DNA from: Owenia fusiformis
Taxonomy: Eukaryota > Annelida > Polychaeta > Sabellida > Oweniidae
Assembly: GCA_903813345.2 (NCBI GenBank)
Contig: CAIIXF020000009.1
Coordinates: 37,133,759 to 37,197,758 of the forward strand
Length of the DNA stretch: 64,000 nucleotides
Direction: 5' to 3'
Shown here: positions 2,664 through 63,919 of the stretch, piece after piece
Layout of the letters: every line of letters begins with the position of its first letter
How positions within the stretch are numbered: the first letter of the stretch is position 1
The notes under the pieces: generated by a model
Told to the model about the DNA's origin: nothing
Database searches by the model: none
What the model saw: the letters and a program-made list of their open reading frames with translations, nothing else
Made by a program: the position numbers and the translations under genes

Positions 2664-4285
2664 TGTCCCCACCACATAGTGTAGGGCCATATTGTCGGCC
2701 TAGGCGCGTCCGACTGTCTGACCGTCCGTATGTCTGGGAGTTTTCTCCAAAACCGCTACAGATATCACCTTCAAATTTTCAGGGATAACTTATGAGTGCC
2801 TATAGATGTGGATGAAAAAAATTTAACTCGAAACTTACTTCCTGTCGGCCATTTTGAAGTCAAACACTAAAATCCTTGTCTGCAAACTTTAAGAAAAACT
2901 GCTTCATAGTTGCTTTTAAAACTTTAACATCTTGTTCAGCTCACTTCATTCTAAATCTGATTAGGTTTTGGACCTGTTAGCTCAGTCGTGTCAGCCATTT
3001 TGAATGTCTTAAGAAAAGTTAGCGCGCGATAATACTTTGTATCATATTGAATGGTGTTTTTGAGTTTTCATACTTAAACTATTTAGCAGCTTTATAAATA
3101 ATTTCAGATGTACTTTGTTGTAAAAGCCTACTTTATTGTTAACACTAGTTATATGTGATAATTTTGTAAAAAGAAATCAGCAAAAACTCATAAGGACTTT
3201 TTTATTGTCGGCCATTTTGGATTTTTTGGTCCTAAAATCTTGTCTGTGAAGTCTTGTCTGCGCATTTTCAGGTGAACCGTTTGGTGGATCAATTTCAAAT
3301 TTTCAGGGATGATTCTTAGTATAAATATCTAGATCTCATTAGTTTTTTGGCATTCTGGGTAAATGTCAAGGCAGCCATTTTGGATTTTCCGTCCTAAAAT
3401 CTTGTCTGTAAAGTCTTGTCTACTCATTTTCAGGTGAACTGTTTGGTAGATCAATTTCAAATTTTCAGGGATGGTTCTTAGTATGAAAATCTAGAACTGA
3501 TTAGTTTTTTGGCATTCTGGGTAAATGTCAAGGCAGGCATTTTGGATTTTCTGTCCTTAAATCTTGCCCGGCTGTAAAGTCTTGTCTACGCATTTCCAGG
3601 TGAACCGTTCTGTAGATCAATTTCAAATTTTCAGGGATGATTCTTAGTATAAAAATCTAGATCTCATTAGTTTTTTGGCATTCTGGATAAATGTCAAGGC
3701 AGCCATTTTGGATTTTCCCTCTTAAAATCTTGCCTGTAAAGTCTTGTCTATTCATTTTTAGGTGAACCGTTTGATAGATCAATTTCAAATTTTCAGGGAT
3801 GCTTTTTTGTATGAAAATTTACATCTGATTAATTTTTTTGCATTCTGCGTAAATGTTAAGGCAGCCATTTTGGATTTTCTGACCTAAAATCTTGTCTGTA
3901 AAGTCTTGTCTACCCGTTTTCAGGTGAACCGTTTGGTAGATCAATTTCATATTTTCAGGGATGATTCTTAGTATGAAAATCTACAAAAAGATTAGTTTTT
4001 TGACATTCTGGGTAAATGTCAAGGCAGCCATTTTGGATTTTCCATCCTGAAATCTTGTCTGTAAAGTCTTGTTTACATGTTTTCTGGTTAACTGTGCGAC
4101 GGATCAATTTCAAATTTTCAGGGGTGGTTCTTAGTATGAAACTCTAGAACTGACTAAATTTTTGGCATTCTGGGTAAATTCTAAGGTGGCCATTTTGGAT
4201 TTTCCATCCTCAAATTGTGTTCGTAAAGTCTTGTCTACTCATTTTCAGGATAACCATTTGACAGGATCACCCATTGGTGGGGACA
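2664..4285. mobile_element. 1.6-kb repeat element with TGTCCCCACCA ends and an internal 162-bp tandem array
   Basis: The termini TGTCCCCACCA (2664) and TGGTGGGGACA (ending 4285) are inverted copies. The left part holds imperfect GTCCG/GTCTG repeats and TTTTCTCCAAAACCGCTACA. The inside is a tandem array (next entry). A fragment of the left end occurs in reverse at 59929-59965. No transposase frame is seen, so it is non-autonomous and unclassified. Confidence 0.75.
3208..4270. repeat. Tandem array of about 162-bp units (roughly 6.5 copies)
   Basis: The GGCCATTTTGGATTTT block recurs at about 3208, 3371, 3533, 3699, 3861, 4024 and 4186, a spacing of 162-166 bp. Units also share TCTTGTCTGTAAAGTCTTGT and TTTCAAATTTTCAGGGAT. 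Divergence among units is visible, so the array is not recent. Confidence 0.9.
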
Positions 4286-10200: not shown

Positions 10201-13200
10201 GGAACAGTTAGTGATAGTACCGTCCATTTGCTTATTATGTCATCACCACAAGTGCTGACATTGTTATAGTCTCCAACTTTTTTCTGGACCGTGTCCGGTG
10301 TCCGTAACAAATGGTATCTGTAAGAAATGGCAAGTGGTGACATTTTGCATGTTTATGTCTTGTTACCTGCATGTTAAGATACCAATATGAGTTGAACATC
10401 TTAACATGTTTTTATGGTCATGAAGGTCCACATATAGAACTGGATTTTCCTCAAGATTTAGTTATTGTTCAAGGAAACTAGGTCTAAATTTTAATAGATA
10501 ACTGTGTCCGATATTACAGTTTTTCGACCAGCATTTTAGCCTGGTTCCCCAGTGATGAATGACCTTCGATGTGTATTCATCATTACTTTTGTAAGGAAAC
10601 TTCAGATTGATTTTAAACAGTAAATATGTTCCAGATAAAAATATCTGTTTAATAAAGAATCATTTTTGTCTATTTTACGTTAAATGAAATTTGATTACTC
10701 AGATGGGAGGAAAAGCATTCACATTTCCTATGTAATTTGAGAACCTGGTGATCGAAAATGGAACTATACTTAAAAATCATGACATAAGCAAACAAACCAT
10801 ATGCTCAACTATTCTACTGAACACCAATTAATCTCCAATGGCATTTTGATGGATTGCGCTCAGGTTATGTGACATGTTTCCGGGGTATTTGACTTAACAA
10901 GAAAAGCTACATCGCAACACATTTTTTCTACCTGTTGCGACAACTTGTTGAGTCTGTCTAGCCTTATGTACAGTTGACTTATTAACTATCATGTATATTT
11001 TTACATAATGTTTGTTTTAAAATGTTTGTGTTTGTCATGTCATGTTGACCCATAGTGTTGTATAATCAATTCATGCTGGGTCAACGACCGATATTTTGCA
11101 CTGCATGTTTGAAGATCAAGGATTGTGATAATTATATCATACTATATCATATCAATTTATCATTTTCGAAGTAATTTGTCTCTGCGAAAGGATGTGTTAC
11201 GCACCAGGATTCGCAAAGGGATTCATTTTCGTAGTAGATCGGAAATCATATTTGACCTCTGGTTAAATAGCATTCGATACTTTCCGCTTCCCTTGTTTGT
11301 ATATATTCGGACATTTCCGTGCTACTGATAGAAATTATGTATGTAGTGACTTATATTCACTACTTCTCAACTAACGTATAAGGATATATTAGTTTTTTTC
11401 TATGATATTGTGCAGGCTGATTTATTAAAAACATTAACCCTTGCGGATCATCGTCAAACAGCAAACAAACATAGGTTCCATTAATTAATATCAAATTAGA
11501 TATTAGGGAGTCATAGAGATCAATAACCATTCACAGTCACTCTATGTTTAGAGGCTCACGTCAATATATCGGTCAGTATGTTCGACAGATTTTGAATTAT
11601 TGTCCGTCCCATCAATAATCTTCCAGACATAACTAGCAGTCCAACGCTTAGGTAGCCTCCCCTGGCAGGGCCTCAAGGCAAACTCACAATATTATCACAA
11701 TGTCATTCACTTTTATGCTTACAGAACAAAGCAGGCGAGATGACATGGAGTCGCTAGGATATGTGTTTATGTACTTTCTCCGTGGCAGCCTCCCCTGGCA
11801 GGGCCTCAAGGCAAACTCACAATATTATCACAATGTTATTCACATTTATGCTTACAGAACAAAGTAGGCGAGATGACATGGAGTCGCTAGGATATGTGTT
11901 TATGTACTTTCTCCGTGGTAGCCTCCCCTGGCAGGGCCTCAAGGCTGCAACTAAGAGACAAAAATATGAACGAATAAGTGAGAAGAAAATGTCCACCCCA
12001 ATTGAAGAATTGTGCAAGGGTTTTCAAGGTAAGTCCATATCAGTTGTCCCATTGACGCTACGTACAGAGAAATCAGGATAATGATATCAAGTGTTCTTGG
12101 CAAGACGGTTGATAGACCTACATAAAAATCATATCCCTTAAAATCATAGGATATCCTCTTTTGTACCAAACGTTATAGAATTTGAACACATATCAAGTTT
12201 GCCAAAATGTTTTATAAATATCCTGCATCAGAATGTATGAAGTAGTTATCCCATCCATGAGTTCAGGATATTTGTTCACTTATTCTTGGTTCAAATATGA
12301 AAAAATAAAATAAGAAAATAGTTATTTCAAATAATTCTGCCTGTTTTAAATCATTTTTCCAGTGTTAGAAATTCTGGTGAAACTCATATTTTTTTCAAAA
12401 CAAATTAGATATTTGTACGTTTTATTTTAGGATTGTACCATTATTTTCTCTGTTTCAGCTGAATTTGCCACATATCTCAATTTCTGCAGATCACTAAGGT
12501 TTGACGACAAACCTGATTATTCCTATCTACGTCAACTTTTCCGCAATTTGTTCCATCGGCAGGGATTTACTTACGACTACGTCTTTGATTGGAACATGTT
12601 AAAGTTTGTAAGTGTCAATTTTTAAGAAATCTTGAATAAGAAATGTAAATGAAAAAATTAAAATAGGGCTACAGTTTTATGAAATTGAACAAAGTAACAC
12701 AATATTTTTACAACATATTATTGGAGTTAAAGTAGGGAAATAATCCAGAATGAAAGTATGTTTAAAGTGCTGTGAATAATGTCATTCTCATAGTATATCT
12801 GTGTCACACACTTTAGCGAATAAATTATTTCATTTGTCGTTCAGTAAACAAGAAAAGTGATGTACATAATACAATGACCTGTATTTAAAACATTCAACCT
12901 CCTATTATATGCTTGATACTCTGAATCAATGGAACTTTCAATGTGCCTGTCAATGAACAGTTTCATAGTTTAGTTTAGTTTATTTCAAACAAATAAAAGG
13001 CCTTGGGCCTATATTTTACAGAAATAATACAATACAAGTTTATATCAATTTAGCAGCCCTTGTCATGTCTTCAATGTTTTATAGCAGAAAGTTGCGAAGT
13101 TACATAAATCATTAACTGCTTTTTGATCAGTTTAATAAAGTTTTGTTGTGTTGGTAAAGTGCATAATTTATATGTGATTAGACTTAATCACCTCTATAAT

Positions 13201-22042: not shown

Positions 22043-22325
22043 TTAATTTCCATTTGTTTTAGCAACAGCATCCTGCGTATTTCTCAATGTATACAATGAC
22101 CATACTGTTAACTGTAGAAACCCTGCTATGACAGGTATTAAACACATTACAGAAAACATCATATCGTGTAAATGGCTTATGTCCTTAGCGTCTGTTAAAG
22201 TTTTGTCCTTTAACTGCTCATATCCGTATCTGTTGAAAACAGCCACTGCAAACATCGGAGCAAATGAATGGGCTGGTTTTGTTATCAAAGCATTTGTTCC
22301 AAATATAGATGAAGAAATTGGCTCT
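22043..22325 (-). CDS. MFSD13A: MFSD13A-like last coding exon and stop
   Basis: The acceptor TATTCCAG precedes EPISSSIFGTNALITKPAHS, FAPMFAVAVFNRYGYEQLKD and a final helix around MMFSVMCLIPVIAGFLQL. The exon ends ..NTQDAVAKTNGN with TAA. The ITKP.HSFAP motif matches the last conserved block remembered for the family. Confidence 0.86.
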
Positions 22326-25300
22326 CTGGAATAGAAGAAAACAATCTAGTCATCGATCTAAAGTATTCAACATTACTGGGTATACAGAATAATGATTATG
22401 AACTAAGATAGATAACAGCAATGCCAAGGCGTAGCATATCCAATTGAAAATTAAAATGTAATTGAAATTGAACACTGAAATGTAAACAACAGCTCCCAAG
22501 TTCAACAGTCATACTTGAAAAAATATCTGGAAATGTAGGGAGGATTGGTGTAATGATACCGATGAAAATATTGAAAATGCTGTGCAATGTCTGTTTAATG
22601 TGTAGGCATAAATGACTTACTTGCGTTGGAACTGCTGCATATCTGTATCTATGATGTCCGACACAGTCATGTTGAAGAAACTAAAGGTGGATTTGGCAAG
22701 CCCCCTGAAGTAGATAATCAGATTATTGTTACTGGACAGTAGGCAATGTATTGAAATATAGAATATCATAATGCTGTACACTGGAGTTCATTATCACAAT
22801 CTCACCATGGATTAGACTGTAGCCAAAATATTAGCAAGCTATTACTAGTACCATGTCAAATCATTCAAAAAAGACGATGATTGCAAATAATGTTGAACAC
22901 CGAATACTGATTATAGAAAAATGGTTGCTATAGCAATATATCACAACTTCTTGCTGATGACATTGAAATGGTGCAGCAGACATAAAAATGGTGCAGCAGA
23001 CATTAAAATGGTGTAGCTGGATTAATCATATAGAGAAGATAACACAATAAAGAGTAATCAATGTGCGCAGTTCAGATATGATAACAGTAGTTCTTACTTG
23101 GCCAACAGGAAGTATATCAGCATGAGAATATAGTACCTCCTTCCAAGAAAAAACATGGTGATACCAGCTGCAATTCTCAGCCACATACTGCTTCTGATCA
23201 CATAATATGACCCTCCCATTCTGGCGGTGAAAGGAGTAAGGAAAATCACGGTAATCTGAAAAATCATTTAAATGTAAGATACAGTTCATATATGTACAAT
23301 CATAATATTTTAAATTTCAATTTTAGAAAAATCTTAAACCCCACCTAGATTCCAACACAACAGAATTAAATGCAGTCTATTTAAAGAATGCACAGCTGTA
23401 TCAAAGAGGAGTACTTTCTAATTCTATTGTTTTTAAAGAATGTACATTTGGCAAACCATAGTTGAAAGTGAATGATACCAACTGTAAAGTAACCTCTTGT
23501 AGTTTTGATTGCTAAGCAGAGGCTGTACAGCTGTTAGAAGGCAAGACCAATTTTAACAAATAAGAGTTTTGTTCAGATTTTGTCACTGTTTTGACAGACT
23601 GCACATATTTTCAGCAGGGTGGGGTGGCATATGATTTTTGAATTTTCAACAGTGTGCAGCTTAAAGGAACATTCCTGGCCAGACCATTTTTCTCCTAATA
23701 TGGTAGCTATAACCATATAATATACTCTCCATATTTAGCAAAACAGGGAAAAATGTTTTAATATAGTCAATATTGATCACTTGAAAATGTAGTGCTGAAT
23801 TCCAGTAGGCTGCCATCTTTTAGTGTTTCACTCAGGAAGTGATGTCATCGACTCTCAACTTTGCATATAACATTATAAGGAGCTATTAAGAATTACAAAA
23901 ACCAGCTGTGCATTCTTTTTCAATTTTGTCTATGATTTAATCCTTCTATAAGTCTCTTCTATTATTCTAAGCTGACAAACTCTGAAAATATGTTTGCACA
24001 TAAAGTAAGAACCACTTGTCTAGAAGTGATTTTGTGCTACTTCCCTATACTGTAATATGCAAGGTCATGGAAGTTGAGAGTCGATGACATCACTTCCTGA
24101 GTAAAATCTTAAAAGATGGCAGCTTACTGGAAATGAGCACTATATTTTTGAATTATCAATATTGACTATATTAAACATTTCCTGGTGTTTTGCTAAATAT
24201 GGAAAGTATATATATGATTATAGCTATCACATCAGGATAGAAAAGGTTTGGCCAGGAATGTTCCTTTAAGTTAGGTCTTATGATAGGGAGATCGCTGCAA
24301 TTCATTTCTTTGTGTCCATGTTTAACCACTATAAAAATACAGTGAAACTTGTATATCTGAACAGATCTGTAATCCAAACACCTCTCAATGTGAACACTTT
24401 TTCTCGGTCCCAAATTTGTTATCTCCCATTGAATTACATGTTTGTACAAGGTATTAACATGTGATATGTCACCACATGCCATTTGTTACAGAAAGCTGAA
24501 CTTTGTCCACATAATAAAACCTTGAGATCTGGATACCTGCTAACCTGGATAATTTTGGCTTGTCCCAGAGGTGTTTGGATTAGACAGGTTTTACTGTATT
24601 CTACTAATTTTATATACTATACCTGGGGTACAATGAAGAAAAGACCAAAATAGAAACTTCTAACATGGGATGGCAGATATTCTTGCGGAATCAAATTCTC
24701 AACCAAGATCACTACAAAGTTCGCCACAAATGTTGTCTCAAAGATTGTGCAAAAATTAACGAATACAAAACAGAGAAAGTTTCGTTGGGACACAATCTGC
24801 CATGTTAGTTTTAATATTGATGGTTTGTCACTGTCTTCTTTTTTGTCAATGATATCAGCTTGTGTTTTTGGGAGAGACGTCGCTTTTGGAATGTAATTTG
24901 TATCTGCATTTCTTCCAGTGTATGACATGAAGAAAAACGACAGCACCGCTATGATGACACAAGCAATTTGAAAGTTACCGAAATTGGTCAAGTTATCTGA
25001 TACATAGTCACAGAAGAACACTGATGTTGACCCAATCAGAGATGCGATTTGACAGTACTTTATTAACTGCACCCTATCAGACTGCTTGCTGGACATCTCC
25101 GTGAAAAGTGCTGACTGGGCAAGTAAAACAAATGTCAGTAAAGTGTCATAAAAGCACAGGGATATGATCAGGTGGATCCCGCATAACCAACTGCCAGGTT
25201 CATATGATCCCCATTTAAACCATGGCACTAGGAATGCAATTGAGTAAAAAACTGCACCATATAAGATGGAATGTCTCCTTGATTTCACACATGCCCACTT

Positions 25301-25510
25301 CCCATTGTCCTGCATGTATCCAAACAACGGATCATTCACAGCATTCCATACCATGTAGATTACTTGGGAAGCTTGGAACCAGGCTTCTGATATCTTGTAC
25401 ATGTTGAGAAAAACTTTTACATAGTAGAAGAAGAATACAGAGCCCATCATCCCACTACCAACACTGGTAGATGCGTATGCCACACTTGGCCAGTGAATGT
25501 TCAATTTCAT
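22043..25510 (-). CDS. MFSD13A: MFSD13A/TMEM180-like multi-pass membrane protein (complete, four coding exons)
   Basis: Read on the minus strand, the coding exons are 25510-24623, 23255-23098, 22704-22621 and 22325-22043. They total 1413 bp, in phase throughout, encoding 470 residues. The protein starts MKLNIHWPSVAYASTS. Near residues 59-68 is NDPLFGYMQD, the family's version of the MFS loop 2-3 motif. Many hydrophobic helices follow, then a charged central loop (DIIDKKEDSDK), then the second half with FTARMGGSYYVIRS, SDIIDTDMQQFQR and NALITKPAHSFAPM. The pattern matches animal TMEM180/MFSD13A (about 517 residues in human), a poorly characterised member of the major facilitator/glycoside-pentoside-hexuronide branch whose substrate is unknown. 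A 5' UTR exon part runs to an acceptor at 25552/25553. The family assignment is from remembered motifs, not a search. Confidence 0.85.
22621..22704 (-). CDS. MFSD13A: MFSD13A-like coding exon 3
   Basis: This short 84-bp exon follows CTTCAG and encodes GLAKSTFSFFNMTVSDIIDT and DMQQFQR, ending AA|GTAAG. The SDIIDTD-type acidic segment sits where TMEM180 relatives have a conserved Asp-rich loop. Its length is a multiple of three, so skipping it would keep the frame. Confidence 0.82.
22967..23018. repeat. Short tandem repeat, three copies of about 21 bp
   Basis: The AATGGTGCAGCAGACAT motif is repeated with small changes in MFSD13A-like intron 2. Confidence 0.75.
23098..23255 (-). CDS. MFSD13A: MFSD13A-like coding exon 2
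   Basis: The acceptor TTTTTCAG precedes ITVIFLTPFTARMGGSYYVI, then RSSMWLRIAAGITMFFLGRR and YYILMLIYFLLA. It ends AA|GTAAG. It encodes two probable membrane helices separated by a basic loop. It leaves two bases that become lysine with the next exon. Confidence 0.85.
23665..24265. mobile_element. TTAA-flanked foldback element (601 bp) in MFSD13A-like intron 1
   Basis: The ends AGGAACATTCCTGGCCAGAC and its complement are flanked by TTAA at 23661-23664 and 24266-24269. The inverted similarity covers most of each half. Blocks such as AGATGGCAGC and GATGTCATCGACTCTCAAC appear in both orientations. TTAA target duplication is typical of piggyBac and Kolobok elements. A related half-copy starts this window. 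Confidence 0.85.
24340..24596. mobile_element. TA-flanked CAGTGAAACTTG/CAGGTTTTACTG element
   Basis: Inverted ends with TA on both sides (24338-24339, 24597-24598). It lies 25 bp inside the donor of MFSD13A-like exon 1. Same family as 42121-42297; the left end recurs at 48810. Confidence 0.8.
24623..25510 (-). CDS. MFSD13A: MFSD13A-like coding exon 1 (start codon to first donor)
   Basis: This is a large exon of 296 codons beginning at an ATG that follows an in-frame UTR without upstream coding similarity. It holds the N-terminal six-helix half, the NDPLFGYMQD loop and the start of the second half. It ends ..FFIVPQ at CAG|GTATAG. The donor lies only 25 bp from the end of an inserted TA-flanked element. 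Confidence 0.88.
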
Positions 25511-26202
25511 AATGATGTCAGTATTATGTCAGCTAACAAGTAACTTCGAGACCTGCAAAACAAATAGTGGAATTTACATATGTGCCTGAGCTACATAGGA
25601 ATGCAGATGTGATACCCTCCAACTACCCTAAAACTTCTCCAAGACAATAAATTTTGTGTCGGAACTTGAATGACAACACTAAGGAGGATTAGCTCCCAGA
25701 ATGTAATCTCAATATTTTCCAATGATGAAAATATCAGAATGTCATTATTGTCTGACATTTAATTGGTTATAAATTCATAACCAGCAATCCAAAAGATTTG
25801 AGCTTATATCTTCATCAATTCTTGTGCGTTTTGAATTTTTTGTTACGAAAATCACAACATCTTTCAAGATTGGATTCATTGTTGGAAAATATCAAGATTG
25901 CATTCTGGGAGTCAATCCTCCTTCCATAACACTGTTTTGGATATTTTTTGAGCTGGGGATATTTGGACTAGCCTACCCCCATAAACTAGTTTTGTATTGA
26001 AATCTTGGGGTTGAAAAACGTCATTATTAGACTAGTTGTTTCAAAGCTGAAATTTATCTTAATAACCACTCATCAAGCTTAGTTTCTGTAAGATTTCAAT
26101 ACACAAGTAGTAGGGGTTGAAATCATCCCCTCATTCATGGGCATAGGCCCGGGAACATGTATAAAAAAGAGTCAAATAGTTTACACCAAGTAAAGAGTAG
26201 AC

Positions 26203-29054: not shown

Positions 29055-29174
29055 GTTAGTAGTAAATCTGAGTTCTAGTCGTTGTTCTCAATATGGCAAA
29101 TATCTCTGTCCCTCAGAGTCTTGATAGCACAGTTGAACTGAATGATGGCTTCAAGATGCCAATGTTTGGCTTAG
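29055..29174 (+). CDS. AKR exon 1 (5' UTR end, start codon at 29093)
   Basis: An acceptor CTCTTCCAG at 29054 implies an upstream non-coding exon. The ATG at 29093 begins MANISVPQSLDSTVELNDGF, followed by KMPMFGLG at a G|GTAAT donor. The ELNDGFKMPMFGLG block is the standard AKR N-terminal beta-hairpin and first barrel strand, which fixes this start within a few residues. Confidence 0.88.
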
Positions 29175-32100
29175 GTAATTATTACACAGTCTTTGTCCAA
29201 ATACTTTATATTTAAGAAATATAGACTGAAGAGCAGGTATTATATTGACGAATAAATACTGCAGGGATAGGCACAAACGTTTTCTGTTCAAAAGCTTTTG
29301 TCCCTAGACCTAAGGTATTTATTACTTATTATACAGTTATAACAGATTCGTTTCAATAACCAGTTTGAATAGTGCTACAGTAAACAGTGCTTGAATTATA
29401 TTTTATTATCACAGTTTTCCTCATCATCTGTACACCCCCTCATCAGCACACTTGGAGGAAATGTAAGTTGTCACTCCTTATTTTTTGTTACTGAAAAACA
29501 CTACAAATTTTCCCTGCTCATCACCATATTTCCTGATTTTGAGAGAATGTGTTTTAAGAAACAATAAAATATCAGTAGGGCAAATTAAAAGGTGGTGTCA
29601 AATCACTACAGAAGTTGATTTTGAACTGTGAAGTGCAGACATGACTTAAAATCACCAAAAAGTTGAGTGACATTCTACATTTCCTCCAAGCTAAATTGGG
29701 ACATTTATTGCATGTTTGTCTTTACTAAATCTTCACATGTTCTAGGTGTATACAAGATGGAAGATGATGCTGAATGTGCAGAGTGTGTTAATGTGGCATT
29801 ATCTAATGGCTACAAGATGATAGATACTGCTGAAATGTACAAGTGAGTCCTCTCTATCTCTATTTAATTATTCAATGTGTTAATGTGGCATTATCTAATG
29901 GCTACAAGATGATAGATACTGCTGAAATGTACAAGTGAGTCCTCTCTATCTCTATTTAATTATTCAATGTGTTAATGTGGCATTATCTAATGGCCACAAG
30001 ATGATAGATACTGCTGAAATGTACAAGTGAGTCCTCCCCATTTCTATTTAATTATCCAATGTGTTAATGTGGCATTATATAATGGCTACAAGATGATAGA
30101 TACTGCTGAAATGTACAAGTGAGTCCTCCCCATTTCTATTTAATTATCCAATGTGTTAATGTGGCATTATATAATGGCTACAAGATGATAGATACTGCTG
30201 AAATGTACAAGTGAGTCCTCTCTATCTCTATTTAATTATTCAATGTGTTAATGTGGCATTATCTAATGGCTACAAGATGATAGATACTGCTGAAATGTAC
30301 AAGTGAGTCCTCTCTATCTCTATTTAATTATTCAATGTGTTAATGTGGCATTATCTAATGGCCACAAGATGATAGATACTGCTGAAATGTACAAGTGAGT
30401 CCTCTCTATCTCTATTTAATTATTCAATGTGTTAATGTGGCATCATCTAATGGCTACAAGATGATAGATACTGCTGAAATGTACAAGTGAGTCCTCTCTA
30501 TCTCTATTTAATTATTCAATGTGTTAATGTGGCATTATCTAATGGCTACAAGATGATAGATACTGCTGAAATGTACAAGTGAGTCCTCCCCATTTCTATT
30601 TAATTATTCAATGTGTTAATGTGGCATTATCTAATGGCTACAAGATGATAGATACTGCTGAAATGTACAAGTGAGTCCTCCCCATTTCTATTTAATTATC
30701 CAATGTGTTAATGTGGCATTATATAATGGCTACAAGATGATAGATACTGCTGAAATGTACAAGTGAGTCCTCTCTATCTCTATTTAATTATTCAATGTGT
30801 TAATGTGGCATTATCTAATGGCTACAAGATGATAGATACTGCTGAAATGTACAAGTGAGTCCTCTCTATCTCTATTTAATTATTCAATGTGTTAATGTGG
30901 CATTATCTAATGGCTACAAGATGATAGATACTGCTGAAATGTACAAGTGAGTCCTCCCCATTTCTATTCAATTATTCAATGTGTTAATGTGGCATTATTT
31001 AATGGCTACAAGATGATAGATACTGCTGAAATGTACAAGTGAGTCCTCCCCATTTCTATTTAATTATCCAATGTGTTAATGTGGCATTATCTAATGGCTA
31101 CAAGATGATAGATACTGCTGAAATGTACAAGTGAGTCCTCCCCATTTCTATTTAATTATCCAATGTGTTAATGTGGCATTATCTAATGGCTACAAGATGA
31201 TAGATACTGCTGAAATATACAAGTGAGTCCTCCCCATTTCTATTTAATTATCCAATGTGTTAATTTGGCATTATCTAATGGCTACAAGATGATAGATACT
31301 GCTGAAATATACAAGTGAGTCCTCCCCATTTCTATTTAATTATTCAATGTGTTAATGTGGCATTATGTAATGGCTACAAGATGATAGATACTGCTGAAAT
31401 GTACAAGTGAGTCCTCCCCATTTCTATTTATTATTCAATATGTATCATATTGTATTTGAACATAAATGACAAGATGTTCAACAGGGAATTGTTCAAATAG
31501 ATTCCTGCATTAAAATTATGAATTCTACAACATAATCCAAATGAATATCTCAGTGTTTCTGACACATTTGGGCATTCGAGGGTGACAACCTTTAGGCTAG
31601 TGTTCTTTGAAGCCTGTGTGACCTCCTACCTCTCCAGCTCTTCCCTTTACAAGGAAGTGAAGCAAATGGAAGGCTACATATTTTCCAATACTGCATATTA
31701 TCTTGATGTAATTTATGTATGAATTGCAGAAAAGGACTTTCATGTTAGGGGGAAGCTGGGTAAATTAGCCATTTATGACAATTAGTATAACTTGTATAAT
31801 GTTCACTGTATACTTCATTTGAGAGTTATTTATTTATTTTCAACATTGTTTAGCATACAGTTTCACATCAAAAACAAGCCTATAAATGGATGATGTCCGG
31901 ATGTTGACAGTGAATAACCCCCCCCCCACAAATAAAACCATCTACCCCTTCATTCCCCCTTATGAAATTCAATTGTTCCTCAACTTCTGGCATTTGGACG
32001 CCATTCCTAATTATTGGTTCGTTATTGGCTTGTAGGTTTGCATAATACACATGTGGAAATTGTACATACATCTAGCCTTTTGTGTGATAAGTCCAACCAA

Positions 32101-35100
32101 TTAATATCCGGATATTAAATTATTTTCATGTATTATTTTATCACTCTTTAACATGTTTGTTGTGTATTTGCTCTTTTAGAAATGAAGAGGGAGTTGGCCG
32201 AGGTCTTAAGAAGTCTGGCCTGAAGCGAGAAGATTATTTTGTTGTCACGAAACTTATGACATTCGGTCACCAACCAGCTACAAATGCATTTAAGCAAAGT
32301 TTAAAAAAGTAAGCACATATTTTGATATTTAGAAATTAGTTAAACTTGTTAAAATTTTAAAAAGATGTAAGAATGAAATCAAATTCAAAAGATTAGACTT
32401 TTATTATAGCATTTCGAGAACCAAACCAAACTAACAAAGATAATCAAATTATGGTTTTTCCAATCTTGATAATGCACTGATATACCCCTCTATAGGTAGC
32501 TAGTGTGTAAATGTAACACTTGATAATAATTATATTACATGAATAAAAAAAATTAAATATGGTAGCAAGCCTTTACAGCATTGAATCATGGACTTTCTGA
32601 TTAAAAAAAGTAAAATTACCATGCATCTTTATTGAGCCACCATACATGAAATGAAATCTTCTTGAGACTAACATAAACAAAATATATAGTTGATATAAAG
32701 AATAAAGTAAGTTTTCACCCAACTTTAAAAAAATTCAAAATTTTAGAGATAATTTTGATGTAAGATTGAGGATATTTGGTGTGTTACTTGATCTACTTGT
32801 CTTACTTTAAGGATTTCTGTTTTAGGTTGGGTTTAGAGTTTGTCGATCTTTATTTAATCCACACACCTAGGTCTTCCAAAGCAAAGATATTAGACTCTTA
32901 CAGGGCAATGATAGAACTGCAGAAGAAGGGATTAATAAGGTAACCAAATTTATTGCTGGAAATAGAGAACGGCTCCAAAAATTCAGTTGGCTTGAAAGTT
33001 GATATTCAAAATGGTTGCTTTCAATAGGAGGAGGCTTCAAGGACATTGTGCCTAATGTTTTTAACCAAATCACTTGTACGAGTATTGATGAATTTTACAA
33101 TGTGCTTTCCATACTGAAATTTTCTAAAATATTGGCTGTTTTTCATCATTTTTTCCAATTGTCAGAAATTCTAGTGAAACCCCTGCATATATATTTCTAT
33201 GATGTGTCTGTTTAAAGTCCCCGTCTAAAGTTTGAAAATATTTTTTTATCATTCATTTACTATTTGTCAGGACTTAAAAAGTGATTTTAGAGATTTTTGA
33301 ACAAAAAAATTTTTTGAACAAAAAGTTGTGAGCATTTCATTTCTCAAATATTCAAATTTCCCGCCATTTTTCAAAAAAAGTTGAAATTTCTTAATCATCA
33401 AATATTTCTTAATGCATTTCAAAAAAGATTATCTTTGTAACACCAATGCAAAGATTGAACAAAAGACACACTATTTCAATAATAAAATTTCATATTTAAT
33501 GGGCCACTTCAATGTTTTAGCTTATCAAAAATATTTTGAAACATTAGTGATGTCACTAAGGTAACAAAAACTTTTTGAAAAAAATTGAATTTATTTTTTC
33601 GATGTCAATCTTTTCTAAATATGCTAGACTTTCATAAAAAACAATGTTGATTGTCTAACCAGGTTAAAAGGAAGAATAAATTATGTTTTAGATATCATTG
33701 TACCATTGGTTTCTATGAGAACTAAAATTTTGAAATGCATTTTTCTCAGAACCATTTTCATGCACTGATAAGTTCATTTCTCGCTTGTTTATCAACCGAT
33801 TTTCTTAATTTTTTCGGCAAAAAACATGGGAGGATGAATGCTATGCATTGGTATGAATTGTGGCTAATTAGAAGATATGAGTGACCTCTAAAAGTTGGTT
33901 TTAAATAAATTCACAAATTTTGGAACAAAAAGTCTATCAAAAACCACTTTTTGAAATTTAAAAAAAACGTTTCACATATCACACTTTGATAACATTGGGT
34001 AAGACTATAATATAAGCCAAAGTGGTTTAAACTTTACATGGGGCCTTTAAAGGATGTGTCCGGGTATATGCCCTTTTGGTCCCTCAGTCAAATGTATGTG
34101 AAATGTGTTTTTTATTACTGTCCTAGTTATATTTCATAAGTATATTTACTTTTTCACGAGTTTTGATGCATAATTAACCCCCTGCTGAGAGTCAGAATAT
34201 AAGTATCTTAATGAAAAAAAATAGTCATTATCATAGAAAAAACACCAATGGCAACATGTATGACTTACAAAGAAGAAATAAATTAAGACCCATAAAGAAT
34301 TTAAAAGAAAATCATATTTTTGAAATATATTTAATGATTAAATTTTTTTTCAAATTTTTGAATTTCCCGCCAGTTTAATTTGAGGGGGAAAAACAAGATG
34401 GCTGCCATTTGATGTAAGAAATATCAGAAAAAAAGTTGCTTCACTTTTAGTTTTCACAATGAGCACAGTTTTCCGGTTTAGGTTTTTTGACTGATTCTGA
34501 TTCTTCATCACCAGGGTCATGTATAGAGATTATAAAATTGAAACCAAAATGTTGTGCTCAGCATGAATTTGACTGAAATATGTGTAACTTCACCAACACA
34601 ATTGAAGTCTCAAAACTGGATGCTCAGTAACTTTGAGTGACTATTAATCCCTTGATTACCCAGATAAACAGCAATTCACTTATCCAGAAATACCATTCAA
34701 TGTCTATACAAAGAAAGTAAGCAATGTTTTGGAGGATATGTTTCAAACCTTTTGTATAAATAATTCATTTAATATTTGCCATTGATTTTTTTCAATTCTG
34801 ACAAAGTGAAATGCACTATCTTTGATGCCAATATTCTTCATTAATTGTGATACAAATTGATATTTTTGTACTCTCAGAAGAAGGATAAGATATTGAAGTT
34901 TAATAATATGTGTGATTGAGTTGCTTTTTCAGACATTACAATTTTCAATATTTTCTAAGTCGATACCCAGACTCATTCCCAGACTCATCCTTTTCAATAT
35001 TACTGCGCTATATTTGAGGTGATGCCTGAATTATTTTTTCAGATTAGGATCGAAATGAAAATGTTGGCATGAAAGGTTGTTTCCAAGCCATTTTACACTT

Positions 35101-38100
35101 TCTTTCTTTCTTTATAGGTCAATAGGGGTCTCTAATTTTGGAGTTAAACACCTTGAAATCTTGAAAGAAGAGGGACTTCCAACTCCAGCTGTCAATCAAA
35201 TAGAGCTCCACCCCTTTCAACACCACAAAGATATCGTGGAGTATTGTAGAGCAAATAATATAGCAGTTATGGGATATTCACCACTCGGGAAGGGTAAACG
35301 ATTGGATGACCCAGATTTATTGCAGATTGCCAACAAGTAGGGTTCTTATCCATTTATCTCTTCAACGCTGCAAACATCCTTTGATATTTTAAAATTAAAT
35401 ATTAGTTCAGACTTATAGTTTACTTTCAACCAGATGGAGCTCTAATCATTTTGGAGGGGCTCTCATTTCTCAGTTGAGCACAGAATTTTGCCAAAAATCA
35501 CAATTATGAATTTGAAAATGTCAGTTTGCCCAAACTTTAGTTACACCATTTACTTTTTTCAAGAAAAGATATGTTTTCTGGGAATCTAGCAGCAAATGTT
35601 ATACATGTTATTAGTATATACTAGTACAAGGGGAAAGAGACTCATTTTAAAAACTAATTTGATCTTTCTTTCCAGGTACCAAAAAACAGTTCCTGAGCTA
35701 TGCATTCGATGGAGTGTACAGAATGGCTTCATAACAATTCCAAAATCAGTCAACCATCAGCGCATCATTGACAACACACACTGCTTCGATTGGTCCATCA
35801 CAGATGATGACATGAGAATAATTGTAAGTATATGTGTCCTTTATATTTCAGTGCATCGTAAAAGTTCTTAAATTCACATTATTCCTTTAGGCCCCCTCTT
35901 TGAGGAATGTATTCCAAATTTAAATTGGACTGCTCAGTTTGGTTTGAAACTAGATTAAAGACCCTAAATGGCCTTACCTGATATTTTCAACAAGTTAAAA
36001 AAAATTGTATTTTGTCTTTTTTTTGTTTTGATTACCAACATAAGATAAAAATTCATATTTTGATTTATTGTGAAAGATGAAATTTTCAGTTGGAACTTCC
36101 TCAATGGTCATGTATGAGCAATGGACTCCGTAGAGTGGATTCAACCGTATTCATATGGGAATAAAAATCATGTGCAAGTTCGCTACATTACTAATAATGT
36201 AGACAGGACTTGGCAAATCGAAAGCAGTGTTGTCGCAATAATCATTGCCAAAATGATCCTTGCTATGTACGGGTGTACAAGAAAAAACATCAATATTTTG
36301 AAAGTTTTCTATATAATCCATATTTTTCACATAAACCACACAATTTTCTTTACTCTTTTCCCATTCAATGATAATTTCACTTATTACATATTTAAACTAA
36401 TTGATATGACTCAATCAGTATCTTTTCAATCTGTACTCCATTGTATACCTAAAAAATTGCCAATTTATTGATGTTTAGTTATGGCACATTGCGACAGCAC
36501 TACTTGAAAGCAAAGATTGCCCTAGAAGGGATAGACAATCGCATGATCTCTGAACGAACATTCTGTGCCAAATATAATCAAGAATCTCCTGAATATATGA
36601 CTTATAATTAATCATATGAGTCAGGTAGACTAACACGTATACAGGATCACTCATCTGATAAAGAAATAGATTGCCCAGATGATGAGATGAAATGGACATA
36701 AAGCAAACCAATGCAATTTTGGTGAATAAACCGACTTGGGACCAACAGATTTGTAAGGGTGTATGTAAAATTAATAAATAAAACTTCAAACTTCATACAA
36801 ATAATCAGGCTCGTAGCCAGGAATTGCCAAGGGGGGTTCAGTTTTCAAAAATTTTCAGGGGGGGGTTCACATTTGATAATTTTGGCCCAAATATGGTGAA
36901 AATCACTTGAAAAGTGCTCAAAATGGTGAAAAACTGCATGATTTTGAAAAAAAAATTTGGCCCTGCGAACCCCCCTCCCCCTCCCCTGGCTACGGGCCTG
37001 ATAATGCACATGATTATTAGATACATTTGCAATGAGATATGCTGCTTTAAAATGATACATACTTGATTACCTGTAGTTTCTTTGGGATTGCATATACACA
37101 AAGTGTGTTCCATGGAGCGTTGAGAGTGCTACATAGATCCATGTCTTAAATACATGAGACATTGACAAATGCAATTTGTACATGTGCAATATTTATAGTT
37201 CTTAAAGGTAGAAGCAGACATAAAACACAACTTTATTTATAATTGTATCGCAATCAGCTATGTTTTGTCTTGGCATCATTCACACTTATGCTTATTCTCT
37301 ATAAAACCCCAAACTATATGTATTCAAGGAAATAATGAACATAGAATTTATTAAAATCTTGTAAATTGTATATTCTTTGGATTTTAAAGACATACCGGTT
37401 GGAAAATCATTAATGTTACTTGCAGTTTTGTCAGCGGATCTCGTGCAAATGTTTAAACAACACCTTTTTGAGAAATGATCAGCCCACAATGCACCGATTC
37501 CAGGGTTTAAATCCTTAAACATTTTAGTACACCTATCATGGTATTATGTAAATATGTACATGTATATATATCATATATTTATTTTAGACTATGTAACGTT
37601 AGTATATGTAATGAACATTAAAGGTCCAGTGTAAAGATTAAACCACTGGCTGATATTGTTTTCTTCTACAATGTAATAAAATTGAAGATGGGAAATAGAA
37701 TATTGTGACTTTTACACAATCTTCCAATGGTATTGAGAAAATAATGTTTTATGATGTTTAGTGGAGTATTTGATGATTTAAGAAAATTTGTTAAAATGGT
37801 TGTAAAATAAAAATGGTGAAAATCATATTTGTTACTTAATAACTAACATTCACTTTTGGAGTAAAAATGTAATAATTATTGGTTTTAGAATATTGCAACT
37901 CCTCATTTTGAATCTCAAATGAATACATACTAGTTAATTTGCATGCTTTCAGCAACAGCTGCCTCAAGCGACTTGTACATCATTCCCCTCTGATCCAACA
38001 AAGCATGTACTCAACTGACATACATCTAAAGTATTGACTGTCTCTAAAATGTCAGCGGATTCTCGAATCCTCTCAAAGGGCCTGAGTGATGTTTACACTA

Positions 38101-62200: not shown

Positions 62201-63919
62201 CTTTCTTGATGCTCGATGCTACCAAACCATATGAGAATGGTGGAAATCATATTCCAATGTATAACTTCAATCCATTCTGAATGTACATTGTATTTGATGG
62301 TGTGACTCCTTACCTTATGGCTGCTGCACCAAGCAATGGAAGCAGCATTAGAGCAACAGAACGTTCAGGGGACCAGCAGTATGGAAGGTTGACCATATCA
62401 GACAACCAATATTCCAGAAATCTGAAATTATAAAAGTCATGATAATTATACATAAAGAACATCCCAAGCTAGGATGAGGTCATTGACACAGTTGTCTTGT
62501 CACTTTTCATGGAAAAAAATAAAAAGAGCATAGAGTCTTGCTTCACTTGTTGCAATTTACCTCATCACTAATTTAGACCTTGCTCTACACCATTCTAGCT
62601 AGGTCTAAATTGTAGCTAGGTCTAAATTGTAACTAGGTCTAAATTATAGCTAGGTCTAAATTGCAACTAGGTCTAAATTGTAGCTAGGTCAAAATTGTAA
62701 CTAGGTCTAAATTGTAGCTAGGTCTAAATTGTAACTAGGTCTAAATTGTAGCTAGGTCTAAATTGTAACTAGGTCTAAATTGTAGCTAGCTGCACACCGT
62801 ACACCATCAATCACCACTGTACATTATGAAATTACAATATGTACAGCTTTTCTTGGACCAACCTCTTGAGTTTGAGTTTTTAAAATAAGTATGACAATGG
62901 ATTTTCAGTAAATACAAACAAAGACCATATTCTGTCTCTCTGTCAGATACCATCTTGAAAATATGAACTCACCCTGTAACAGTGGAGACACCCTGCTGCA
63001 TCAGGAATCTGGTGAAAAACACCCACCTAAAGTCATGGTCTGAAAACAAAGCAACATTTAAACCAATGTAAAAAGCATATTTTAGAAAAATATGAAGGAT
63101 TTCATTTCAAGCAGAGATGCATATTTCTTTTTAAATGCCCCATTTTGAATTTAAAGGCCATTCAGAAATTCACTTTGAACAGAGATAAAGCATTTATCCT
63201 TTTTTAAAATTAAAGGCGCACTTTGGGAATTTTCAACATTTTTGGGCAAAATAAAGACATACATTTAAATTTCATAGTATGTCCAATGTGTTGATAAGAA
63301 CCTTATCTTTCATTTGACACCAACAACAGCTCAAATGGACCACAGCAAAGCTTATAATAAATGTCAAGCTTTATATACATGTATCAAGTTTTTATCAATG
63401 TCATTGAAAAGGATGGCAGAGTTGTTTGTATTACATGATACATTCATTTTTATAGAAGTTTCGCCATCTTTTAAATCGATAGTAATTTAAAACATGCTCT
63501 TTGTTTACATGTGCATGCATGTCTAATGATCTCTGAACTACAAATGCTTTTTTGACGTTTTTCTATGTGAGTTACTTTTTTCTTGGTTCAATATAAAAGC
63601 AAATCAAACTTTGTGTCACATTTGAGCTAGTGTATGAGTAACACGTTTCAATGACTACTTTTTTATTTTTCGTCTAAATTAAGTATAGTGCAGCTTTAAC
63701 CTAAGCTGGAATTCCTTTAGACTTTACAGTAGCCTAGACTGAGTTTAATTTCAATATTCTACCTTTTAAAGGCTCCCAATAGCCTTTTAAGATCTTCCTC
63801 CATTCTATGGGTTCGTGTATGGGTTTGGCTGGTTCCTCTGGTGTTGTGAACACTGTGATGAGTACAGTTATCACCACAACTCCTGTCACACACCCATAGA
63901 CACTGAATACACCCATTTG
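59046..63919 (-). CDS. MFS transporter, C-terminal half (seven exons; N-terminus beyond right edge)
   Basis: On the minus strand the exons are 63919-63763, 63039-62973, 62421-62314, 62008-61944, 61330-61241, 60714-60614 and 59216-59046. They total 759 bp, in phase at every junction, encoding 252 residues and TAA. The product has alternating hydrophobic helices and the major-facilitator loop motif GIVSDRIGRRKP, placed where the second-half motif falls in this superfamily. Other blocks are WVFFTRFLMQQGVSTVTGFL, YGMGLGSFQAVDFALVMDVL and ILPQALATPIGG. The acidic segment DVLDDDKDKAKDIAVWSQ followed by LPQALATP recalls an uncharacterised MFS group shared by bacteria, protists and some animals. No substrate is claimed. 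It is unrelated in detail to the MFSD13A-like gene. A minus-strand AATAAA at 58918-58913 lies about 130 bp after the stop. Confidence 0.85.
59929..59965. repeat. Terminal fragment of the TGTCCCCACCA element (reverse)
   Basis: The sequence CACTATGTGGTGGGGACAT and its flank match the left end of the element at 2664 in reverse complement. Only about 37 bp remain recognisable. Confidence 0.75.
60277..60472. mobile_element. 196-bp element, CAGGCCCGTAGCCAGG ends, TTCAA target duplication
   Basis: It lies in the last intron of the MFS transporter. The ends CAGGCCCGTAGCCAGG and CCTGGCTACGGGCCTG are perfect inverted repeats, flanked by TTCAA at 60272-60276 and 60473-60477. The interior matches 36806-37000 in reverse orientation, including TCATGCAGTTTTTCACCATT. 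Confidence 0.9.
60614..60714 (-). CDS. MFS transporter exon (AVDFALVMDVL segment)
   Basis: The acceptor TTTATAG precedes GMGLGSFQAVDFALVMDVLD and DDKDKAKDIAVWSQ, ending CAG|GTATGA. The acidic/lysine-rich loop after a polar-residue helix is the most distinctive part of the protein. Confidence 0.85.
61241..61330 (-). CDS. MFS transporter exon
   Basis: The acceptor TTTTCAG precedes ALMMCITTSILSFMRGEYAY and YVAIALSVIY, with donor G|GTAAG. It encodes two hydrophobic stretches joined by a short charged turn. At 90 bp it could be skipped without a frameshift. Confidence 0.82.
61497..61728. mobile_element. Foldback element with about 54-bp arms
   Basis: The arms 61497-61550 and about 61674-61728 (core CCATTGCCCGGCATGGACCA and complement) pair with a few mismatches around a 123-bp loop. 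It lies in an MFS transporter intron. Confidence 0.82.
61944..62008 (-). CDS. MFS transporter exon carrying the SDRIGRRKP loop motif
   Basis: This 65-bp exon follows TTTTTCAG and encodes SIACGIVSDRIGRRKPLVIT before G|GTAGGA. The G..SDR.GRRKP sequence is the major-facilitator motif A form and is the main evidence for the family call. Confidence 0.86.
62314..62421 (-). CDS. MFS transporter exon
   Basis: The acceptor ATTTCAG precedes GFLEYWLSDMVNLPYCWSPE and a helix around RSVALMLLPLLGAAAI, with donor AG|GTAAGG. It is in phase with both neighbours and is 108 bp long. Confidence 0.82.
62597..62790. repeat. 17-bp minisatellite, 11 copies (alternating 34-bp higher order)
   Basis: Units AGCTAGGTCTAAATTGT and AACTAGGTCTAAATTGT largely alternate, so the effective period is 34 bp over most of the array. 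It lies in an MFS transporter intron. Confidence 0.95.
62973..63039 (-). CDS. MFS transporter exon
   Basis: The acceptor GTTTTCAG precedes DHDFRWVFFTRFLMQQGVST and VT, with donor GG|GTGAGT. It encodes the first helix of the C-terminal half; the R..MQQGV pattern is typical of that helix in related MFS proteins. Confidence 0.82.
63214..63695. mobile_element. Candidate TTAA-flanked element (482 bp)
   Basis: The ends AGGCGCACTTTGG and the complement of AGTATAGTGCAGCT share about ten positions and are flanked by TTAA at 63210-63213 and 63696-63699. It is weaker than the other TTAA elements. Confidence 0.5.
63763..63919 (-). CDS. MFS transporter exon (first visible)
   Basis: The acceptor TTTCTAG precedes QMGVFSVYGCVTGVVVITVL, ITVFTTPEEP and the cytosolic loop ending WRKILKGYWEPLK. 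It is one membrane helix followed by the central hydrophilic loop expected between the two MFS halves. Phase-0 entry means the preceding exon, outside the window, ends on a codon boundary. Confidence 0.8.

Follow-up and report, generated by a model that had tools for sequence, protein, structure and literature searches.

Eighteen copies of one 5' splice site in an aldo-keto reductase gene: a probable mirage-type minisatellite across an exon-intron boundary

Tandem repeats that lie over exon-intron boundaries have been described in the Adh3 and globin genes of amphioxus, where they were named "mirages" (PMC3087553). In that report, the repeat of BflGb6 sits on the acceptor side (units of 150-160 bp, 6 and 3 copies depending on haplotype) and that of BflGb9 on the donor side (157 bp), the Adh3 units measure 10-72 bp, and splice signals occur in many of the units. 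Beside these repeats the authentic exon remains intact, RT-PCR suggested that regular splicing is unaffected, and copy number is unstable both between haplotypes and somatically (PMC3087553). Tandem duplication across such a boundary is also one proposed source of new introns, and intron gain by tandem duplication has been treated as a general process (PMC3443670).

Here we describe a 92-bp tandem array over the exon 2/intron 2 boundary of an aldo-keto reductase (AKR) gene, found in a stretch of 64,000 nucleotides (hereafter the window). The array offers a natural experiment on donor choice by the spliceosome, with 18 equal sites as against the two of published minigenes: an intron-centric rule predicts use of donor 18 and hence a broken protein, whereas an exon-centric rule predicts use of donor 1 and a normal one. 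We consider it highly probable that the array is a boundary-spanning "mirage" minisatellite, expanded by duplication and tolerated by virtue of exon definition. The literature search, which covered few subscription papers, brought up no array with so large a number of identical donors. Searches of viral contigs, a non-eukaryote collection and as such uninformative on relatives of the array, gave no match to a 29-base pattern of the unit and, with the AKR protein as query, eight stretches that matched a pattern, none of which was confirmed.

The assignment of the host gene to the aldo-keto reductases, already made in the initial annotation, is well founded. Six exons were found, and when joined through donor 1 they form an open frame of 789 nt (coordinates in Table 1); the encoded protein matches Pfam PF00248 (E = 8.1e-51; 173.3 bits against a curated cut-off of 24), and its best solved relative is YvgN (E = 1.5e-72, alignment over residues 7-261). 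The segments IDTAEMYKN, VVTKL and LIHTP hold what we take to be the catalytic Asp-Tyr-Lys-His positions of the family. Two motif searches for a C-terminal exon after exon 6 returned no convincing candidate, and no AKR paralogue was seen in the window, where all tblastn matches beyond the exons and the array copies had E values of at least 0.075. The introns that flank exon 2 measure 571 nt and 2337 nt.

Table 1. Coordinates of the AKR gene, of selected elements of its array and of a second boundary-spanning repeat, numbered from the first letter of the window.
Feature	Position	Strand	Remarks
AKR exon 1	29093..29174	+	82 nt, begins at ATG
AKR exon 2	29746..29842	+	97 nt; final 59 nt supply the exonic stretch of copy 1; donor CAA/GTGAGT
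AKR intron 2	29843..32179	+	2337 nt; 773 nt minus 17 x 92
TGA stop	29844..29846	+	hit by every transcript reading past donor 1; 60-residue protein
Array copy 18	31348..31438	+	sole unit with an indel: 1-base deletion in intronic part, 1 substitution in exonic part
AKR exon 3	32180..32308	+	provides intron 2 acceptor
AKR exon 4	32826..32939	+	
AKR exon 5	35118..35336	+	
AKR exon 6	35676..35823	+	last exon found
Second boundary-spanning repeat	11654..11945	+	TRF, 133 bp x 2.2, over exon acceptor of kinase gene

The array occupies positions 29784-31438 of the plus strand and consists of 17 units of 92 bp followed by an 18th of 91 bp. The corresponding TRF row (29784-31443; period 92, 18.1 copies, 97% matches) has a score of 3012, the highest among the 21 TRF rows of the window; since copy 18 is only 91 bp long, the array proper ends at 31438, though the TRF row runs on to 31443. 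Every unit (18/18) straddles the exon 2/intron 2 boundary, joining 59 bp from the end of exon 2 to the first 33 bp of intron 2 (32 in copy 18), and every unit contains the donor 9-mer CAAGTGAGT (CAA/GTGAGT). The array accounts for 18 of the 26 plus-strand GTGAGT occurrences in the window. TRF and alignment thus agree with the initial annotation on the number of copies, on the make-up of the unit and on the integrity of all 18 donors.

With copy 18 aligned with a gap, the copies share a mean pairwise identity of 96.3% (minimum 93.5%); the ungapped figures of 95.8% and 88.0% underestimate the identity on account of the one-base deletion in this copy. For the same unit, 7 differences from the consensus when ungapped become 2 with a one-base gap, as compared with 0-4 in copies 1-17, and its candidacy as the most diverged unit was rejected. 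We likewise rejected the array as coding sequence, as neither strand holds an ORF of at least 40 aa wholly within it. Copies 1-2 gave a predicted RNA fold no better than that of shuffled sequences (z = -1.09).

The consequence of donor choice for the protein can be read from the frames. When each of the 18 donors is joined to exon 3, donor 1 alone gives an open frame, in agreement with the earlier claim that a normal protein comes from the first donor only; the products of donors 2-18, 17 in all, terminate after residue 60, since TAC AAG TGA is read in the exon frame at the first junction. The TGA that had been placed at the end of each unit in fact straddles the splice junction. Exon 2, 97 nt long with donor 1, would grow to between 189 and 1661 nt with donors 2-18, and the TGA would then precede the exon 2/3 junction by 88 to 1560 nt. 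Under the customary 50-55 nt rule of NMD, all 17 of these products should be decay substrates.

On the acceptor side, the best AG within the array is preceded by 10 pyrimidines among 17 positions and ends AAG, as compared with 11-16 of 17 for the gene's five acceptors by this crude measure. The notion of a lone downstream acceptor could not be established, as two further AGs in intron 2, ending at 31637 and 31653 downstream of the array, are matched in pyrimidine content (13 and 14 of 17, respectively) to the acceptor of exon 3 (13 of 17). These acceptor-like AGs, within 31600-31660 of the plus strand, may denote a cryptic or unannotated exon.

How a spliceosome might deal with near-equal donors has been addressed both in minigenes and genome-wide (PMC9225289). 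Under the classical intron-centric rule, as described there, the donor next to the downstream acceptor is the favoured one. Among near-equal donors with flanking introns of more than 250 nt, however, preference goes to the one that lies closest, across the exon, to the upstream acceptor, and five transfected minigenes with two identical strong donors (CAG/guaagu) used the upstream one exclusively, whereas short flanking introns favoured the downstream donor. According to the same source, the genome-wide preference extends to a majority only, the upstream donor being favoured in 60% of near-equal pairs over all classes, the downstream donor is preferred in all four intron classes if splice-site strength is left uncontrolled, and weakened donors led constructs with larger exons to skip the exon preferentially. 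The array donor, CAA/GTGAGT, differs from the donors of the minigenes (PMC9225289). Given introns of 571 and 2337 nt and an exon of 97 nt when donor 1 is used, donor 1 is therefore expected to win and should be used over donors 2-18. Normal AKR splicing, with donor 1 adjoining exon 2, is probably left intact.

We envisage the following history. A tandem duplication would have crossed the junction between exon 2 and intron 2, and the array would have grown to 18 units through unequal exchange or slippage. As the extra copies all lie downstream of an intact exon 2 and its donor 1, they are intronic; the spliceosome would pair the exon 2 acceptor with the nearest donor, that of copy 1, across the 97-nt exon, and copies 2-18 would leave as part of the excised intron 2. 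Infrequent use of these later donors would lead to the TGA after residue 60, at least 88 nt before the junction, and the RNA would presumably be degraded. Exon definition is thus what would render the array harmless. It should be added that, when a junction is duplicated in tandem, an intact exon remains beside one outermost site, so that the proximal position of the productive site is partly a matter of construction.

If the 10 variable columns among the 92 of copies 1-17 fall at random positions, a donor invariant in 18/18 units is expected by chance with P of about 0.34, and the 18 intact donors are no evidence of constraint. All seven distinct changes in the exonic part (7/7) are nonsynonymous (P = 0.24 under no selection), which is compatible with neutrality without proving it. 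Variable columns in copies 1-17 are spread over exonic (5/59) and intronic (5/33) parts without a clear difference (Fisher P = 0.49); a contrast that included copy 18 (5/59 vs 10/33, P = 0.016) was dropped as an artefact of its ungapped alignment. Neither the donor invariance test nor the test on exon-part substitutions gave a signal of selection on the array copies.

Regarding turnover, neighbouring units in copies 1-17 are more alike than in shuffled orders (lag 1, P = 0.016, among nine lags tested), lag 6 (P = 0.030) hints at a six-unit period, and lags 2, 8 and 9 tend to dissimilarity. The lag 1 and lag 6 signals both fail correction for nine lags, and local duplication is therefore suggested rather than demonstrated. 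The array would be expected to be unstable in length; length variation, the alternative raised in the initial annotation, is plausible in view of the amphioxus mirages, whose copy number differs between haplotypes and somatically (PMC3087553).

The initial annotation had proposed that the array tunes AKR level through nonproductive splicing. In such a scheme, some fraction of transcripts would be spliced at donors 2-18, hit the TGA and be degraded, with array length setting the fraction. That all 17 alternative donors lead to the same early stop, each far enough from its junction as detailed above, fits such a role, as do the intron-centric rule, which would favour donor 18 (PMC9225289), and the predicted U1 pairing of the array donor (-5.4 kcal/mol), which lies inside the range set by the other donors of the gene (five, -4.5 to -6.5 kcal/mol). 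Set against these are the five minigenes in which equal donors under exon definition were used upstream only (PMC9225289), the regular splicing left undisturbed by amphioxus mirages (PMC3087553) and the neutral appearance of the copies; the proposal has gained no positive support, and we judge it very unlikely that the array regulates AKR output. The related notion of a splicing rheostat that is inherited and may vary somatically, in which productive donor 1 of a length-variable array of identical donors competes with 17 nonproductive ones to fix AKR protein output, strikes us as similarly improbable.

It is also conceivable that the 17 extra donors go unspliced and act as U1-binding sites, which would strengthen the definition of exon 2 or block premature polyadenylation. 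U1 that binds shortly 3' of an authentic donor can promote exon definition, as reported in PMC5933811, and the poly(A)-type signals of intron 2 (one AATAAA, two ATTAAA) all lie 3' of the array. However, nothing indicates that exon 2 is weak, and any such effect would be a by-product of a repeat whose copies bear no sign of constraint; we regard this reading as very unlikely. Finally, mis-assembly might have inflated the copy number of a shorter array, and one comparable amphioxus array does appear aberrantly assembled in the genome draft (PMC3087553), but here 13 of the 18 units are distinct and their variants are interleaved, a pattern that simple duplicated contig ends would not produce, and we attach little credence to an artefact.

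The tolerated minisatellite that we favour has a counterpart on the acceptor side elsewhere in the window. The second boundary-spanning repeat (Table 1) belongs to a protein kinase gene, identified by a match to PF00069 and, judging from its motifs, presumably casein-kinase-1-like. It holds two near-identical acceptors, which place the exon start at 11725 or at 11858; the kinase frame runs open from 11858 to a donor at 12027, and from 11725 a stop is met in all three frames. The productive acceptor is the exon-proximal one, paralleling donor 1 of the AKR gene. Four loci of the window have TRF units of at least 90 bp (at 3211, 11654, 21113 and 29784), and at least two of the four, 11654 and 29784, span identifiable exon boundaries. 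Together with the AKR array, the acceptor-side case hints that tandem duplications over exon-intron boundaries may be common in the source genome.

Several other features of the window deserve mention. The array at 3211-4260 comprises 6.4 copies of a 162-bp unit (85% matches), and its unit holds an acceptor-like TTTTCAG/GTGAAC; a further minisatellite at 62592-62789 has a 17-bp unit repeated 11.6 times (TRF). An MFS_2 (MFS/sugar transport) gene is present in pieces on the minus strand at 22043-25528; the segment 24617-25528 matches PF13347 at E = 1.6e-11, and 22043-22345 gives a match that is weak and below cut-off. An ORF of 95 aa at 855-1142 of the plus strand has no Pfam match at E 0.01, and its sequence resembles what we take to be the end of a Tc1/mariner-type transposase.

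Taken together, the AKR array is a real, striking and largely explained structure, a big donor-side minisatellite of the mirage type. The G+C content of the window, near 34%, lies below the value of about 41% that we assume for Branchiostoma, and the array may therefore be a mirage outside that genus, which may amount to a modest extension of a known kind. Its 18 units of 92 bp on the donor side set it apart from the amphioxus mirages described above, and whereas the edge unit of BflGb6 is described as escaping homogenisation (PMC3087553), no diverged edge unit was seen here, copy 18 at the downstream edge lying within the range of copies 1-17 and being no more diverged than the others. An intron gain in potato (PMC4974935) likewise involved a duplication that crosses an intron-exon boundary and carries the parental splice signals; as reported, that duplication was on the acceptor side, in two copies, and a cryptic donor created the new intron, whereas the AKR array multiplies donors and shows no evident new intron because its best internal AG is weak. 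Minisatellite expansion can also sit at exon-intron boundaries in the internal tandem repeats of human segmental duplications, which differ in being put forward as a potential origin of new introns in primate paralogs (PMC2812944), and the VNTR in intron 6 of human TERT is similarly a minisatellite in an intron of a coding gene, one whose copy number affects splicing (PMC3948165). The closest likeness is nevertheless to the amphioxus mirages as a class (PMC3087553), with which the AKR array shares both its position across a boundary and an exon and reading frame left intact beside it.
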